From Acidocella sp. (GTDB lineage: Bacteria; Pseudomonadota; Alphaproteobacteria; Acetobacterales; Acetobacteraceae): 64,000 nucleotides of DNA. Below are positions 25,516 to 53,885 of the stretch, one piece after another. The notes under the pieces are model-generated. The model had not been told where the DNA came from. It saw only the letters and a list, made by a program, of their open reading frames with translations, and did not search any database. The position numbers were made by a program, and so were the translations under genes. The stretch spans positions 1 through 64,000 of the forward strand of contig JAQNCT010000003.1 in NCBI GenBank assembly GCA_029077825.1. The letters run 5' to 3'. Every line of letters starts with the position of its first letter. Position 1 is the stretch's first letter.

Positions 25516-26418
25516 ATGGATGGATTTACCGATATCCGCGCGGGTGGTTGGGTGCGGCTTTTACCGCGGCGCTGGATTCCCTATGCGATTTTGGCGCGGT
25601 TTGACCGGCCGGTGGGGGCATGGCTGCTGTTTTTGCCAGGGTTGTGGGCCATCTGCCTGGCAGCAGGGGGCTTCTGGCTGGGGGTGTGGCTGACCGTGCT
25701 GTTCGGCGTGGGGTCAGTGGTGATGCGCGGCGCCGGGTGCGTGGTGAATGATTTGTGGGACCGCGATATGGACCGGCTGGTGACCCGCACGGCCGGGCGG
25801 CCGCTGGCATCAGGGATATTAAAGCCGATTGATGCGATGGCGTTTTTAGCGCTGCTGCTGGCGCTGGGGCTGCTGATTTTGGTGCAGCTGGATAATATCG
25901 CCCGCTGGCTGGGGGTGATTTCACTGCTGCCAGTGGCGCTGTATCCGCTGGCGAAGCGGGTGACCTGGTGGCCGCAGATTGTGCTGGGGTTCACCTTCGG
26001 CTGGGGTGCGTTGCAGGGCTATGCGGCGGCGGCGGGTGCGCTGCATTGGCCGGTGGTGCCGCTGTATGCAGCGGCGATTTTTTGGATCCTGGGGTATGAC
26101 ACGATCTACGCGCATCAGGACCGTGAGGATGATGCGCTGATCGGGGTGAAATCCACCGCCCGCTTGTTTGGCGCCAACACCAAGCCGTTTTTGCTGGTGT
26201 GCTATGGGGCGATGATGCTGTTGCTGGCGGTGGCAATGGCAATGTCCAAAGCTTCGGTGTTTGGCATTGCAGCACTGTTGTTGCCGGCGGCGTTGTTGCT
26301 GCGGCAGATTTTGTTGCTGGATATCAACAACCCTGAATTATGCTTAAAGTTATTTAAGTCAAACCGGGAGGTTGGGCTGGCCGTCGCAGCGGCGATATTG
26401 ATCGGTCAGGTGTTCTGA
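25516..26418 (+). CDS. ubiA: 4-hydroxybenzoate polyprenyltransferase
   Basis: 300 residues, about nine membrane helices. The two Asp-rich prenyl-diphosphate sites are NDLWDRDMDRLV (about residue 80) and YAHQDREDD (about 200). The DRPVGAWLLFLPGLWAI opening and GYDTIYAHQD are specific to UbiA of the ubiquinone pathway. Start at ATG 25516 is chosen over the track start because it avoids overlap with rsmE. Contrast with the MenA-like paralogue at 51211. Confidence 0.94.
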   Translation: MDGFTDIRAGGWVRLLPRRWIPYAILARFDRPVGAWLLFLPGLWAICLAAGGFWLGVWLTVLFGVGSVVMRGAGCVVNDLWDRDMDRLVTRTAGRPLASGILKPIDAMAFLALLLALGLLILVQLDNIARWLGVISLLPVALYPLAKRVTWWPQIVLGFTFGWGALQGYAAAAGALHWPVVPLYAAAIFWILGYDTIYAHQDREDDALIGVKSTARLFGANTKPFLLVCYGAMMLLLAVAMAMSKASVFGIAALLLPAALLLRQILLLDINNPELCLKLFKSNREVGLAVAAAILIGQVF

Positions 26419-46874: not shown

Positions 46875-48713
<1,839 letters not shown>

Positions 48714-48744
48714 AGCCGGGTGTTGTGGTTTTGGTGAAACCCCC

Positions 48745-48843
48745 GTCCCTCCGCCGGTATGATCCGGATCAGGTTCAAAGGGTTTGCCGTGGTGGGTTTC
48801 CCCCTAGCGACATCTCAGTTCCTTCCGGAACACCCCTCGGTGA
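48745..48843 (-). promoter_or_regulatory. TPP riboswitch (THI element)
   Basis: Reading on the minus strand: GGGGTG, a variable hairpin, ACTGAGAT, then ACCCTTTGAACCTGATCC and GGATCATACCGGCG, the two conserved halves of the thiamine-pyrophosphate aptamer in correct order. It lies about 60 nt before the SD hairpin and thiC. Confidence 0.93.
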
Positions 48844-49075
48844 AGCCAACAGATGCCATTGAGTGGGATTTGTCAAACGACGAATGGGTTGGGCGGGTGA
48901 AGATGGCGGGCGTACGCATCAACAAGGATGGTGCTGTCTATGGGTTGCAGGGACTGTTCGCGGCTGGCGAGGCGTCGTGCCGTCATTTGCGGGGCATGTT
49001 GCGCAGAAAGATGGCATTCGGTGCCGTTCACCACCTGCTGCCGAAATTTCTAAAACCCGCAGAGTGATCCGCCGC
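48844..49075 (+). pseudogene. Fragment of an FAD-dependent oxidoreductase
   Basis: The plus-strand frame through 48860-49066 reads MAGVRINKDGAVYGLQGLF then AAGEAS, which resembles the C-terminal FAD-contact region of fumarate-reductase/flavocytochrome-c type flavoproteins (GGVRVN..., GLYAAGE). Preceding codons run into the riboswitch and no N-terminal domain exists, so this looks like a leftover fragment. The ORF-track version (48759-49067) includes riboswitch sequence and is not a gene. Confidence 0.4.
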
Positions 49076-49084
49076 TCGTCCGGT

Positions 49085-49112
49085 AAAACCGCCCGAGGGG
49101 TTGCAGGCGGTG
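49085..49112 (-). terminator. Terminator of the radical SAM/peptide operon
   Basis: Minus strand: CCGCC, loop, GGGCGG then TTTT, directly past the stop of the last radical SAM gene. Short imperfect stem but correctly placed. Confidence 0.6.
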
Positions 49113-49116
49113 GTTT

Positions 49117-50079
49117 TTATAACCCGGTTTCTGCCATATCCCAGGTTTTATTGGCGTGCTTGAGCAAATCAGGATTGCTTTGGCAATTGACCACGAAGTC
49201 CCGCACGGTTTGGGTACGCCAGGCGTTTTGGTAAGCTTGCCAGGCTTCGAGCAATGATTGCCGTTTCAAATCGGCGGGGGCGAAGGGCAGGGCATTCAGG
49301 AGCTTTACCTTGCCGTTAGGAACCACCAGCAACATGGCCTGAGGGGACTCCAGACGGCGCTCAAGCTCGCTCACTATATCCCAGGGATAGATCGACAGCG
49401 CGATATCTGACGGCACGGCTGCCGCACGCGCGCGTAATGATATTTCGGCTTGCTGCCATGTAGTGTCATCACAGGCCAGAGTGTCCCACGCCGCCGCGGC
49501 GCGGCCAAGCCGCATTAGCGGCCCGGTGACGAAAGCGCTGCAACCATGCTGTATCGCCAGGTCAAAAGCCGGAACAATGTCATGGATATTCAGCCGGGTC
49601 GGAACAAATACCAGTTGCGGTTTTGTGCCAAGTGCGACCAGCCGGTCGATGGCCGCTAACGCTGCCGTGAAACTGCTGCCGGGCCGGCCGCGCGCATGGG
49701 TTGCGGATGTGGCGCCATCAACCGAAATTTGCACGCAATTGACCCCCATCGCGTGCAGCCGCGCTGCCGCCGCATCATCGATCAGGCTGCCGTTGGTCTC
49801 AAGCTTAATGGCAATGCCGGCGGCTGCCAGCGCTTCAAAAATATCCCAGCAATGGGCCACCGCCAGCGGTTCACCACCGCCGAATGCGACGTAAGGGATA
49901 CCAAGGTCAATGATTTGCCGGACAATGCCCATGGCATCATCACGCCCTAATTCGTCAGGCCAAGCATGGCCGGGGCCGGATTCCTCGCAACACGCCAAAC
50001 AACGGGCTTCACACCCGTTGGTTAGCTGCCAAGCGAGGAACAACGGCGATCGATAGGAGTCAAACGACCGCCCAGACAT
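49117..50079 (-). CDS. Radical SAM protein C of the peptide cluster
   Basis: 320 residues. CxxxCxxC cluster motif CEARCLAC at residues 23-30, GGEP-type motif AFGGGEPLAVA, LETNGSL and QISVDGA, i.e. a complete radical SAM core. The C-terminal region (LLVVPNGKVKLLNALPFAPADL) aligns with that of the two sibling proteins and sits where a SPASM domain would be, but contains none of the cysteines needed for auxiliary clusters. Starts 17 nt after the precursor-peptide stop; no clear ribosome-binding site, so probably coupled. Exact modification unknown. Confidence 0.85.
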   Translation of the reverse strand: MSGRSFDSYRSPLFLAWQLTNGCEARCLACCEESGPGHAWPDELGRDDAMGIVRQIIDLGIPYVAFGGGEPLAVAHCWDIFEALAAAGIAIKLETNGSLIDDAAAARLHAMGVNCVQISVDGATSATHARGRPGSSFTAALAAIDRLVALGTKPQLVFVPTRLNIHDIVPAFDLAIQHGCSAFVTGPLMRLGRAAAAWDTLACDDTTWQQAEISLRARAAAVPSDIALSIYPWDIVSELERRLESPQAMLLVVPNGKVKLLNALPFAPADLKRQSLLEAWQAYQNAWRTQTVRDFVVNCQSNPDLLKHANKTWDMAETGL

Positions 50080-50096
50080 AGCTAGTTCAGACGATA

Positions 50097-50255
50097 CTAT
50101 GTGAAACGAATGTAGGGCTGCGCCATGACCTGTTCAGACACATCTTCCAGCAGCGGGGTTTCCAACATCGGCGACTTTGCCGGCTGTGTCTTGTTTTCCA
50201 GTAGGTCTTCAGTCTTTTTTGTTTCGCCAGGAATCTTCGAAATCATGTCGGGCAT
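50097..50255 (-). CDS. Candidate RiPP precursor peptide, 52 residues
   Basis: Below the ORF-track length limit; found by reading between the radical SAM genes. ATG at 50255 has GGAGAG eight nt upstream; a second in-frame ATG (50246) overlaps the stop of radical SAM gene B as ATGA. The leader-like part is charged (SKIPGETKKTEDLLEN), the middle is acidic with LETPLLEDV, and the C-terminus is EQVMAQPYIRFT with one Tyr (48) and one Phe (51). No Cys or Trp. No homologue is recognised. Position inside a PqqD/radical SAM operon makes it the natural substrate. Confidence 0.75.
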   Translation of the reverse strand: MPDMISKIPGETKKTEDLLENKTQPAKSPMLETPLLEDVSEQVMAQPYIRFT

Positions 50256-51214
50256 TTTTCAAACTCTCCGCTAGAAATTAATGACAAAGCATTCGCCGCA
50301 GCATGCACGGCGCTATCAATAATCGCCCGCTCAATCGCCGCGATGACGCCGTCATCATGCCACGCGGCGCAATAGTTTTCCCAAGCTTTGGCAAAACTTA
50401 TACGCCGAAGATCAGCACAAATACAACCAATTGCTGCGACGACTTTGACCATGCCGTTCGGTAGGATCAGCATGGTGGCCGGGGGCGTTGCAAGGCTCAA
50501 TTGCAGCCCGGCCTCCACTGTGAACGGATTGTAACAAATTTCAAGTGAATCAGCCAAAAGCGGGGCCTGGATATCCAGCATTTGTTTGAAATTTTGGTAC
50601 GCCGCTGGGGTGGCGGCGATTTTTGGCCATAGCTTGGCGGCGCGGCCGATGTTCATCAGCATGCCGGTGTTACAGCGAAAGGCCCCAAGGGCGCGCGCCT
50701 GCGCGATAACGGCCTTTGCCTCGTGCAGGTTCAGCCGGGTCGGGGCGAAAGTAACCTCAAGCGGCAGGCCGGCTGCGCGCACGGCACGGCACGCGGCATG
50801 CGCCTTGGCGAGCGACGCACCGGGACGTTGGCGTTCATAGGTATTCTGCGTATCGCCATCGAGGCTGATCTGCACCGAGCGGATCGGCAGCTTGGCCAAT
50901 CGTTTCGCCACCGCGGCATCAAACAACTGTCCATTGGTCTCGATTTTAAGCTGAATCCCGGCCCGGCCCAGAAATTCCGCCACCTCAAAAAAATGCGGCA
51001 TAATCAGCGGTTCGCCGCCGCAGAGCATCACATAGGGGACGCCGTTGGCCACGATGTCAGATGCGAGGCGCATCGCCTCATCGGCGGTCAGCTCATTTGG
51101 CAATGGTTTGCCGGGGGCGGAATCCGTACAGCAATGCAAACAGGCCAGATCACAGGCGCGGGTCATCTGCCAGGAGACAAACAGCGGTGCGCGCAATGTA
51201 TCGATCAGGTTCAT
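50243..51214 (-). CDS. Radical SAM protein B of the peptide cluster
   Basis: 323 residues from the ATG at 51214, which overlaps the prenyltransferase stop (ATGA). Cluster motif CDLACLHC at residues 21-28, MLCGGEPLIM, IETNGQL, QISLDGD: a full radical SAM core paralogous to proteins A and C. The C-terminal part carries IGCICADLRR with two Cys where sibling A has one and C has none; too few for a normal SPASM site. Its stop overlaps the precursor peptide gene. Confidence 0.88.
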   Translation of the reverse strand: MNLIDTLRAPLFVSWQMTRACDLACLHCCTDSAPGKPLPNELTADEAMRLASDIVANGVPYVMLCGGEPLIMPHFFEVAEFLGRAGIQLKIETNGQLFDAAVAKRLAKLPIRSVQISLDGDTQNTYERQRPGASLAKAHAACRAVRAAGLPLEVTFAPTRLNLHEAKAVIAQARALGAFRCNTGMLMNIGRAAKLWPKIAATPAAYQNFKQMLDIQAPLLADSLEICYNPFTVEAGLQLSLATPPATMLILPNGMVKVVAAIGCICADLRRISFAKAWENYCAAWHDDGVIAAIERAIIDSAVHAAANALSLISSGEFEKCPT

Positions 51215-52164
51215 TGCCGATGGATTAACCAGGCTTGTAGCGCGATCGTTACGGTGAACACCGCCGCCGTCACCAGATAGCACGCCACAATGCGCCGGAT
51301 GGCCGGAACAAACAGCCGGGGTGCGGTGAAGGTGCCGAGCGCGCTGCGTCCGCTAGAGATGAGCAACGGCAGCGCAGCCAAGGTGGCCAGGCTGAGCACC
51401 GGGAATACCCCGGCGATGACGCCCGCCGCCACCACCAGCAGGGCCAGAGCGGCAAGACCCAAATAGAGCCAGACCGCACGTTCACGGCCGACGCGAACTA
51501 CCAGGTTACGTTTCCCGACCAGCCGGTCCTGATGAAAGTCCGGGATGGCATTCACCACCGCCAATGACATGATCATGAACCCCGGAACCAGCGAGGCCCA
51601 AAGTGCGCCCCAGGCAAACAGCCTGGAATGTAAGTACAGGCTGCCGAGCACCATCCAAGGGCCGTAGGAAAGGGCTATGACCGTTTCGCCCAAACCGCGA
51701 TAGGCCCAGCGAATCGGCGGGGCCACATAAAATACCGCCGCCAGACCGCCCAATCCGGCGAACGCCAGGATCGGCCAGCCAGCGCTGAGGGTGAGATAAA
51801 TCCCGACACCCAAAGCTCCGGCGAAGCCCGCGATGCCCAACCAAAGCACCGCATCGGACATCGGCGGTAAATCCTGCGGGTTGAACACCCGGTCGGTTCC
51901 CATCCGCGCGTCAAAATACTCGTTGAAGGCCTCGACTCCGACGACCGCCAGCCCGACGCCGGCGAGGCCGCTCCAGAAAATCGCGGCGTCCAGATGGCCG
52001 GTGATAAGGTAGGCCCATGCCGCACCCAGCACATAAGGCAGCAGGCCGGCGTAGAGAAAGAACCGGTAGCGCACCAGGCTCATCACCAGGAACAGCCGGC
52101 GCAGCATGCTCGGCGCCGCCGCCGGGGTTTGCCGCATATGCGGCGGCGTTACAGATAGACCCAT
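51211..52164 (-). CDS. MenA/UbiA-superfamily membrane prenyltransferase in the peptide cluster
   Basis: 317 residues, about nine membrane helices. First Asp motif FNEYFDARMGTDRV and second motif NAIPDFHQDRLVGKRNLVVRVG, both of the MenA type (NDYFD..GTD; NNIPD...GKRTLAVRLG) rather than the UbiA type seen at 25516. Such enzymes attach polyprenyl chains to aromatic rings at the membrane. The start overlaps radical SAM gene A by 16 nt and the stop overlaps gene B by 4 nt, so it is an integral part of the operon. In this context I infer prenylation of a modified peptide or its aromatic product. Confidence 0.9.
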   Translation of the reverse strand: MGLSVTPPHMRQTPAAAPSMLRRLFLVMSLVRYRFFLYAGLLPYVLGAAWAYLITGHLDAAIFWSGLAGVGLAVVGVEAFNEYFDARMGTDRVFNPQDLPPMSDAVLWLGIAGFAGALGVGIYLTLSAGWPILAFAGLGGLAAVFYVAPPIRWAYRGLGETVIALSYGPWMVLGSLYLHSRLFAWGALWASLVPGFMIMSLAVVNAIPDFHQDRLVGKRNLVVRVGRERAVWLYLGLAALALLVVAAGVIAGVFPVLSLATLAALPLLISSGRSALGTFTAPRLFVPAIRRIVACYLVTAAVFTVTIALQAWLIHRQ

Positions 52165-53150
52165 TTGTGCAGCAATGAGGTTGTTCCAGGCTCCCGCGCC
52201 AGGGTGTCAACAAATTCAGAAACCTGCGGGTCCTGCCAGGCGCGCTGAAAATTCGCCCAGATTTCACCTAAGCTGTCTTTGCGCAAATCGCCGCAGACAA
52301 ACGGCAAGGCGTTGATCAGCTTGACCAGACCGTTGGGCAATACAATCAGCAGGGCGGCTGGATGATGCAGCCGGTAGCGAAGCTCGTCGAGCAAGCCCAT
52401 CTCATGAAAATGCACTCGCATGCGGCCATGATAAGCGGCGGTTTTTTGATGCAGCGTTTTGAAGACTTCATCATACTGCGGCTCGCTCGGCGCCAAATGC
52501 CGCCAGGCTTTAACCGCGTTGCCGGTGTACATGGTGCGCCCGGTATAAAAACTCTGGGCGCCGAGATCATAAGCCAGATCAATCGCCGTGCCGATTTCAT
52601 GGGCGTTGAAGCTGGTGGGGGAATAATTGATCTCAATCGGCACGCCGGCGGTTTGCAGGTTGCGAATGCCTTCGACGACCAGATCAAAATTGCCACGCAC
52701 CCGCATCCGGTTGAATGATTCGGCCGTTGCGCCATCAAGGCTCACCTGCACCGCCTTGACCCCCAGCTCCTTCAGCCGCGCACAAGCCTCCGGGGTGAGG
52801 TAATGGCCATTGGTCTCGACTTTAAGCTCAATGCCCCGGCTGCAAACATACTCAACCATTTTGAAAAAATGCGGATGGATCATCGGCTCGCCGCCCGAAA
52901 ACGACAAATACGGGACGTCATACTCAACCAGTTGGCGCAGCACATCGAATGTCTGCTGTTCGCTCAGCTCGTCGGGGAAGGCTTTGCCGGGTCCGCTCTC
53001 CTCGATGCAGTGCAGGCATGCCAGATTACATTCGTTGGTGATCTGCCACGCCACATAAAGCGGGGCACGCAGGCTGCCAGAGGTGGTGGTGGCGGGCGTG
53101 GTGGCCGGGATGGCTATTGCGGGGCCTGGGGCGGTTGGCGCCTCGCTCAT
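52149..53150 (-). CDS. Radical SAM protein A of the peptide cluster
   Basis: 333 residues. A flexible Ala/Pro/Thr-rich N-terminus (1-25), then CNLACLHC at 41-48, SFSGGEPMIH, VETNGHYL and QVSLDGA. The C-terminal region (LLIVLPNGLVKLINALPFVCGDLRKDSLGEIW) is shaped like a SPASM domain but has a single Cys. Of the three siblings it is the most canonical and lies directly behind the PqqD gene (4-nt overlap), as MftC follows MftB in mycofactocin. Probably the first enzyme to act on the leader-bound peptide (inference). Confidence 0.9.
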   Translation of the reverse strand: MSEAPTAPGPAIAIPATTPATTTSGSLRAPLYVAWQITNECNLACLHCIEESGPGKAFPDELSEQQTFDVLRQLVEYDVPYLSFSGGEPMIHPHFFKMVEYVCSRGIELKVETNGHYLTPEACARLKELGVKAVQVSLDGATAESFNRMRVRGNFDLVVEGIRNLQTAGVPIEINYSPTSFNAHEIGTAIDLAYDLGAQSFYTGRTMYTGNAVKAWRHLAPSEPQYDEVFKTLHQKTAAYHGRMRVHFHEMGLLDELRYRLHHPAALLIVLPNGLVKLINALPFVCGDLRKDSLGEIWANFQRAWQDPQVSEFVDTLAREPGTTSLLHKWVYL

Positions 53151-53407
53151 TGCGCATCGTCCGTCAGCAGGCCTTTTTGTTGAAGCGAAACGATCAGCGC
53201 AGCAACATCCTGTTCGATTTTTCCGGTAGGATCCTGGAAACTATGCCGCAGTTTAGCGGCAATTTGCGCACTGTCACAGCCGGGTTTGATTTCGCGTATC
53301 ACCGCCGCCGCTGCCGCATTTAACGTGTAGACCTTTTCCGATTGGGTTTCGAACAAAACGCCACCGAATTTTTCCTCGCGAAATTTTACATGCTTGGCCA
53401 GTTGCAT
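53147..53407 (-). CDS. PqqD-family RiPP recognition protein
   Basis: 86 residues from the ATG at 53407, preceded by AGGAGAGAGG. The winged-helix PqqD/RRE pattern is visible: N-terminal strands (VKFREEKFGGVLFET), KVYTLNAAAAAVIREIKPGCDSAQIAAKL and the C-terminal helix DVAALIVSLQQKGLL. PqqD and MftB bind the leader of their precursor peptide and deliver it to a radical SAM enzyme. The stop overlaps radical SAM gene A (ATGA). Confidence 0.9.
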   Translation of the reverse strand: MQLAKHVKFREEKFGGVLFETQSEKVYTLNAAAAAVIREIKPGCDSAQIAAKLRHSFQDPTGKIEQDVAALIVSLQQKGLLTDDAQ

Positions 53408-53421
53408 AACGACCTCTCTCC

Positions 53422-53484
53422 TTAAAACACTGAGCAATAAGGCAGAACAACACCTTCGAATGATGATCCAAACTTTTGTTCCAT
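53422..53484 (-). CDS. Possible 20-residue peptide between membrane protein and PqqD
   Basis: A tiny ORF starting at the ATG right after the stop of the 98-residue gene: MEQKFGSSFEGVVLPYCSVF. Ends just before the PqqD ribosome-binding site. Its V-x-x-PY-x-x tail loosely resembles the VMAQPYIRF tail of the 52-residue peptide. No ribosome-binding site is visible, and a TATAAT-like box overlaps its upstream side. May be chance. Confidence 0.3.
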   Translation of the reverse strand: MEQKFGSSFEGVVLPYCSVF

Positions 53485-53781
53485 CTATATTATAACGCAA
53501 ACTTGCGGACGAAAGAAGAGCAAAGTCACAGCTATCAGAATTGCCAAAATCGCCAGAACTGCGATGTTCAGCCGCAATGGCAGCCCTGCATTGTCAGGGG
53601 GACGAGTGGGATTGGTCGGTGGCGTAACGTTAATCAAGGTGGCGGGGGGTGTTGCGGTCAACGCCACGCCCAAAGTCAACGGCTTCAGGGTGGAACCAGG
53701 CGGGCGCAGCGTGAACGCGCGCAAGGCCGTTTGGCTGCCCCGCTGGCGGAGATAGCGCAGGATGTCATCTACACGGGACAT
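53485..53781 (-). CDS. Small protein with C-terminal membrane anchor
   Basis: 98 residues, unrecognised. Starts with a basic helix (MSRVDDILRYLRQRGSQTALRAF), has a Pro/Thr-rich middle (LTATPPATLINVTPPTNPTRPPDN) and one hydrophobic segment near the end (LNIAVLAILAILIAVTLLFF). It is the first sizeable gene of the peptide operon, 77 bp before PqqD. The tail-anchored layout would place its N-terminus in the cytoplasm or periplasm depending on insertion. Could be an anchor or export helper; this is speculation. Confidence 0.6.
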   Translation of the reverse strand: MSRVDDILRYLRQRGSQTALRAFTLRPPGSTLKPLTLGVALTATPPATLINVTPPTNPTRPPDNAGLPLRLNIAVLAILAILIAVTLLFFRPQVCVII

Positions 53782-53855
53782 TATTTTATGAATTCAAATT
53801 TCTGGTCTGGCGGCTCGGCAAGCTGCCAGATGGATATGAGCCAGCAGTAGATCAT
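53781..53855 (-). CDS. Possible 24-residue leader peptide
   Basis: Short ORF beginning MIYCWLISIWQLAEPP, whose TAA overlaps the next ATG as TAATG. Hydrophobic, two Trp. No ribosome-binding site is visible and it may be accidental, but the stop/start overlap fits translational coupling. Confidence 0.25.
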   Translation of the reverse strand: MIYCWLISIWQLAEPPDQKFEFIK

Positions 53856-53856
53856 G

Positions 53857-53885
53857 ACGTGACAACAGTTTAATTGTTGTTACGT
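53857..53885. promoter_or_regulatory. 29-bp inverted repeat upstream of the peptide operon
   Basis: ACGTGACAACA, 7-bp spacer, TGTTGTTACGT: arms match in 10 of 11 positions. Located between the operon and the divergent broken acyltransferase gene. Candidate operator for the cluster. Confidence 0.55.

Follow-up and report, generated by a model that had tools for sequence, protein, structure and literature searches.

The subject of this analysis is a block of six genes on the minus strand of a 64,000-nucleotide stretch of Acidocella sp. DNA (GenBank assembly GCA_029077825.1, contig JAQNCT010000003.1, positions 1 to 64,000; hereafter the window). From 53407 down to 49117, the genes encode a PqqD-family peptide chaperone (pqqD), a radical S-adenosylmethionine (SAM) enzyme (rsA), a prenyltransferase (ubiA), a second radical SAM enzyme (rsB), a short peptide, and a third radical SAM enzyme (rsC). 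We conclude, with a probability of about two in three, that this block makes a peptide-derived, polyprenylated quinone-type electron carrier. A more specific form of this conclusion, in which the block gives menaquinone (or demethylmenaquinone) by a third route, independent of chorismate, and the naphthoquinone head is cut from the last residues of the peptide, VMAQPYIRFT, is offered tentatively, as a serious possibility short of an even chance. An earlier interpretation without database searches (the sequence-only reading) had proposed that the peptide is modified through PqqD and the radical SAM enzymes and that an aromatic part of it is prenylated to give a quinone-like membrane molecule. 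This proposal, the chemistry of which we infer, is supported by polyprenyl diphosphate synthase genes in the Elusimicrobia operons, by MenA and UBIAD1 as the nearest prenyltransferases, by hosts in which neither MenD nor MqnA/D was found, by mutual exclusion with the futalosine (Mqn) pathway, and by the menaquinone of Rhodopila (PMC12542754, PMC9640540).

A search with rsA across 84,980 species returned 49 loci. The proteobacterial hosts include Rhodopila (among them R. globiformis DSM 161), Acidiphilium, Acidocella, Rhodothalassium salexigens, and Rhodovibrio sodomensis, and further hosts are found among the beta- and gammaproteobacteria and, in large number, the Elusimicrobiota. All six genes are present in unchanged order in 43 of the 43 fetched loci that are not interrupted by a contig end, and the count of complete blocks covers only these. 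One locus (L049, 10963-12606) has about 1.6 kb between the peptide gene and rsC, unlike every other locus. The sequence-only reading had named rare co-occurrence of the genes, or a peptide that is not conserved, as signs that it was mistaken; the genes strictly co-occur, and conservation within the block is highest in the peptide. After a variable N-terminus, the peptide carries the leader motif WxxPxxExVS and then VMAQPYIRFT immediately before the stop codon. Among 43 distinct sequences, nine of these ten C-terminal residues never change and the remaining one does so once, from M to T, while nearly every tail codon that can vary synonymously does vary. Constant residues over varying codons indicate selection on the peptide itself and, together with the recurrence of the whole block, place the gene set well beyond chance. 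Each of the 43 uncut loci thus keeps together what defines a ribosomally synthesized and post-translationally modified peptide (RiPP) system at the genomic level, namely an encoded precursor beside a RiPP recognition element (RRE)/PqqD protein and a maturase.

The block can also be reduced. One Elusimicrobia genome (G187, locus L087, 4263-6869) has a minimal variant that consists of the peptide, PqqD, a single radical SAM enzyme, and UbiA, and that sits between unrelated genes. Its PqqD, radical SAM enzyme, and prenyltransferase are 35, 42, and 42% identical to the window proteins, and despite this divergence of the enzymes its peptide keeps the VMAQPYIRFT tail. From this variant we conclude that the lasting core is the peptide, PqqD, one radical SAM enzyme, and the prenyltransferase. 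Within the genus Acidocella the block is present in only 2 of 38 genomes, so that it is an accessory trait, patchily inherited; no copy was matched among 72,556 plasmids. Such a patchy spread, along with the combination of a small peptide, radical SAM enzymes, and a prenyltransferase, could suggest a prenylated peptide natural product that acts as an antimicrobial or a signal. Natural products of this kind diversify, yet the core here is identical across phyla, and the block has no recurrent companion gene for transport, proteolysis, or immunity. This explanation, which we consider extremely unlikely, would also leave the link with oxidases and the missing quinone genes described below without a cause.

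The enzymes of the block provide further information on the substrate. PqqD (Pfam 42.8 bits, cut-off 23.4) has a conserved stretch, MxLAKxVKFREEKFGGVLFET, across 21 aligned members. All three radical SAM enzymes have the CX3CX2C motif and a Radical_SAM Pfam score above cut-off (rsA 90.6, rsB 80.3, and rsC 73.1 bits), which places them in the superfamily, and judged by their sequences they are paralogues. In a tree of these enzymes, rsB and rsC each form their own clade with support of 100/100, and rsA falls outside both. The only invariant cysteines of rsA are C41, C45, C48, and C286 (21 members), and those of rsB are C21, C25, C28, and C29. Identity as SPASM maturases was rejected because the three enzymes have neither a Pfam match to the SPASM domain at E<=1 nor its auxiliary-cluster cysteine set; outside the radical SAM motif the only invariant cysteines are C286 in rsA and that of the adjacent CC in rsB and rsC. 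The AlphaFold model of rsA (predicted local distance difference test, pLDDT, 85) has SkfB and PqqE, which are peptide maturases, as its nearest solved folds, and sequence profiles concur with this placement. In NCBIfam, the top match of all three enzymes is MftC (TIGR03962; 134.9, 113.5, and 104.7 bits, with 265 required), and they are roughly as close to AhbD and NirJ, which act on tetrapyrroles. Action on tetrapyrroles is disfavoured by the conserved peptide and by PqqD. A related alternative is that a quinone is indeed made but that the radical SAM enzymes use a small metabolite (compare MqnE and MqnC), with the peptide serving as a carrier or activator that contributes no ring atoms. The radical SAM enzymes of the futalosine pathway are established builders of the naphthalene ring, and the nearness to AhbD/NirJ is in keeping with this alternative. 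PqqD, the leader-like motif, the ten all but invariant C-terminal residues, and the SkfB/PqqE-like fold are nevertheless hallmarks of a peptide substrate, and we regard the alternative as quite unlikely.

The block resembles pyrroloquinoline quinone (PQQ) synthesis in its PqqD-type chaperone, radical SAM enzyme, and short precursor, and in the logic of leading from a peptide to a quinone; the PqqA precursor, like the block peptide, has a WxxP leader motif. It resembles mycofactocin synthesis in that MftC is the best radical SAM match and in that the substrate residues lie at the extreme C-terminus. The view of the sequence-only reading that it is neither system was borne out by profile scores and by the core motif, on which assignment to PQQ or mycofactocin is rejected. 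PqqD scores under every NCBIfam equivalog cut-off (TIGR03859, 32.8 of the 46 bits required), and the PqqE models are not attained either. The Glu-X3-Tyr pair of PqqA never occurs in the block peptides, where Met (in one case Thr) stands four positions ahead of the invariant Tyr, and PQQ synthesis differs from the block, which has a prenyltransferase. On the mycofactocin side, MftC stays at about half the required score, MftB reaches 21 of the 33 bits needed, the block is without a glycosyltransferase, and the core VMAQPYIRFT differs. No gene of the block attains an equivalog cut-off in the NCBIfam library of June 2026, which therefore has no model for this system. PqqD, a peptide, and MftC-like radical SAM enzymes would also be expected if the block made a mycofactocin-like, membrane-anchored redox cofactor derived from the peptide and used by particular dehydrogenases rather than a quinone that diffuses within the respiratory pool. 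Such a cofactor does not predict the exclusion of the futalosine pathway in oxidase-bearing Elusimicrobia, a polyprenyl synthase in the operon, or menaquinone in hosts without MenD and Mqn, and there is no conserved dehydrogenase gene alongside the block. We consider it unlikely.

The prenyltransferase is one link between the block and quinones. It belongs to the UbiA superfamily (PF01040, 70.6 bits, above cut-off) and keeps both Asp-rich motifs, NEYFDxxxGTDR and PDFHQDRLVGK. Its best NCBIfam matches are MenA models, which is a likeness to the classical Men pathway, but it remains under all MenA cut-offs (TIGR00751, 56.5 of 102 bits). UBIAD1, the animal menaquinone-4 synthase, is its only PDB sequence match at E<=0.01 and also its best structural match. 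The gene directly upstream of pqqD encodes a polyprenyl diphosphate synthase in 22 Elusimicrobia loci, and this points to a long-chain prenyl product.

If the block makes a quinone, its relation to the known pathways in the same genomes is informative. MenD above cut-off was found in 0 of 29 host genomes, which sets the block apart from the classical pathway, and MqnA/MqnD (PF02621) in 0 of 28. A UbiA (TIGR01475-like) match is present in the proteobacterial hosts and in none of the Elusimicrobia hosts tested. The window itself has a match to 4-hydroxybenzoate-type UbiA at 25633-26415 on the plus strand, so this host also has a ubiquinone-type prenyltransferase. Among 150 Elusimicrobiota genomes, the block is present in 10, Mqn in 8, and true MenD in 2, with zero overlap; the two MenD genomes (G091 and G132, 280 and 274 bits) are small and without COX1. 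Of the 16 genomes with COX1, 14 have exactly one of the two systems (8 the block, 6 Mqn, 0 both, 2 neither), and the association between block and COX1 over the 150 genomes has a Fisher p of 1e-7, uncorrected for phylogeny. Other UbiA-family genes in the respiring Elusimicrobia that were checked lie 1-4 kb from COX1 (8 matches in 7 genomes), and the two that were scanned are haem o synthase above cut-off; these matches were accordingly rejected as quinone enzymes. Draft assembly cannot account for the absence of known pathways in one host (G075), whose chromosome is complete, and in another (G053) the genes for Rieske protein, cytochrome b, cytochrome c, CtaB, and COX1 are neighbours, a set that indicates a chain requiring quinol. 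The pattern is the one that would be expected of a pathway replacing the futalosine pathway. The two share the Elusimicrobiota niche, in which they are mutually exclusive, and in both, radical SAM enzymes build (for the block, would build) the head group and a UbiA-fold enzyme adds the chain. They differ in that the block has PqqD and a peptide, and in that its prenyltransferase resembles MenA rather than MqnP.

Data on quinones in the hosts agree with this picture. Rhodopila globiformis contains menaquinone-9 alongside ubiquinone-9 and rhodoquinone (PMC12542754), and its reaction centre, solved by cryo-electron microscopy at 2.24 Å, has menaquinone at the QA site (PMC9640540). Menaquinone-10 (MK-10) has been reported for Rhodovibrio (PMC7179689). 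Both are hosts of the block (L006 and L015), and MenD and Mqn were found in neither, so that in at least two host genera menaquinone occurs although the genes known to make it were not found. Rhodothalassium salexigens, too, presumably has menaquinone, according to classical chemotaxonomy.

Several observations weigh against the conclusion that the block makes such a quinone. UbiE/MenG is present in 8 of 8 Mqn-bearing Elusimicrobia vs 1 of 10 that bear the block. In the other nine, plain menaquinone is therefore an unlikely product unless some other methylase takes over this step, and the Elusimicrobia may instead make a demethyl compound or another quinone. It is also not obvious how menaquinone would arise from Tyr, because it carries no additional oxygen on its ring. 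No peptidase gene lies within the block, and the chemistry is deduced entirely from genomes. The Elusimicrobia genomes are mostly draft metagenome-assembled genomes, and the genomes are phylogenetically non-independent. Finally, two COX1 genomes (G142 and G177) have neither Mqn, MenD above cut-off, UbiE, nor the block; a block copy of lower similarity was sought in them with the UbiA profile and none was found. These two genomes fit the alternative that Rhodopila and Rhodovibrio owe their menaquinone, and the block-bearing Elusimicrobia their quinone, to another, undiscovered pathway with which the block merely co-occurs. The known pathways were followed by marker genes only (MenD, MqnA/D, UbiA-type, and UbiE/MenG), which leaves room for such a pathway. 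In several respiring Elusimicrobia, including the one with a complete chromosome, the block is nevertheless the sole candidate with a UbiA-family enzyme other than CtaB, and we think this alternative very unlikely.

The peptide-derived quinone that we favour could be made in five steps. PqqD would first bind the leader motif of the peptide, and the radical SAM enzymes (three paralogues in most loci, a single enzyme in the minimal variant) would then oxidatively remodel the core, with Tyr(-5) and/or Phe(-2) as the likeliest sites, to give a hydroxylated aromatic head. A host peptidase encoded outside the block would release this head, to which the MenA/UBIAD1-like prenyltransferase would add a long polyprenyl chain, supplied in Elusimicrobia by the polyprenyl diphosphate synthase of the operon. 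Proteobacteria, which own UbiE for ubiquinone, may in a last step methylate the product to menaquinone. In the Elusimicrobia hosts, in which no other candidate for a quinone pathway was found, the product would feed the cytochrome bc/oxidase chain, and in proteobacteria the block would supply a low-potential quinone beside ubiquinone.

In the window (Table 1), ORF (open reading frame) calls confirmed the six genes, their common strand, and their order, and Pfam matches above cut-off confirmed each of the large genes. The six ORFs are packed and leave no space for a further gene. The proposed chain of overlapping genes held at four junctions (pqqD/rsA 4 nt, rsA/ubiA 16 nt, ubiA/rsB 4 nt, and rsB/peptide 13 nt) and failed at the peptide/rsC junction, which is a 17-nt gap. 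The start of pqqD was placed at the ATG common to its homologues. The closing terminator-like hairpin and the preceding inverted repeat were both found as described. Upstream of pqqD, a 98-aa ORF (53485-53781, minus strand) with a transmembrane C-terminus was considered as a seventh gene and rejected as probably outside the system; tblastn found no match to it in related loci, even in the sister locus (L002, 94% identity). Adjoining the block, an ordinary thiamine pyrophosphate riboswitch (RF00059, 76 bits; 48729-48847, minus strand) lies ahead of thiC (46875-48689).

Table 1. The six genes and flanking elements of the block, with positions in the window
Feature	Position	Strand	Basis or detail
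pqqD, PqqD-family peptide chaperone (RRE), 86 aa	53147-53407	minus	PF05402
rsA, radical SAM enzyme A, 333 aa, CX3CX2C	52149-53150	minus	Radical_SAM
ubiA, UbiA-superfamily integral-membrane prenyltransferase, MenA-like, 317 aa	51211-52164	minus	PF01040
rsB, radical SAM enzyme B, 323 aa, CX3CX2CC	50243-51214	minus	Radical_SAM
peptide gene, 52-aa precursor-like product	50097-50255	minus	tblastn
rsC, radical SAM enzyme C, 320 aa, CX3CX2CC	49117-50079	minus	Radical_SAM
terminator-like hairpin at block end	49085-49117	minus	9-nt arms, 15-nt loop, minus-strand T-run
inverted repeat upstream of block	53857-53885	.	14-nt arms, 86% complementary, 1-nt spacer

We found no family or publication that describes this system when searching by motif and through the RiPP, UbiA, PqqD, menaquinone, and Elusimicrobia literature, a coverage outside which most subscription papers and preprints fall. 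Both respiration and photosynthesis depend centrally on isoprenoid quinones, and to our knowledge the known bacterial routes to these quinones all start from small metabolites. If our reading is true, an encoded peptide as the starting point would be a new kind of lipid/cofactor biosynthesis. Another recent and unexpected bacterial quinone is that of the Nitrospirota methyl-plastoquinone pathway, which, as described where it is cited (Elling et al. 2025, cited in PMC13386864), is built from homologues of ubiquinone, plastoquinone, and menaquinone enzymes and by that description is set apart from the block. A 2026 survey reports that many bacterial lineages seem devoid of quinone genes and that further quinones may await discovery (PMC13386864). 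The block, if it acts as we propose, would explain how oxygen-respiring Elusimicrobia without known quinone genes sustain a bc-type/oxidase chain, and it would explain the source of the menaquinone at QA in Rhodopila globiformis. Confirmation would establish a new way in which cells can make a respiratory quinone.

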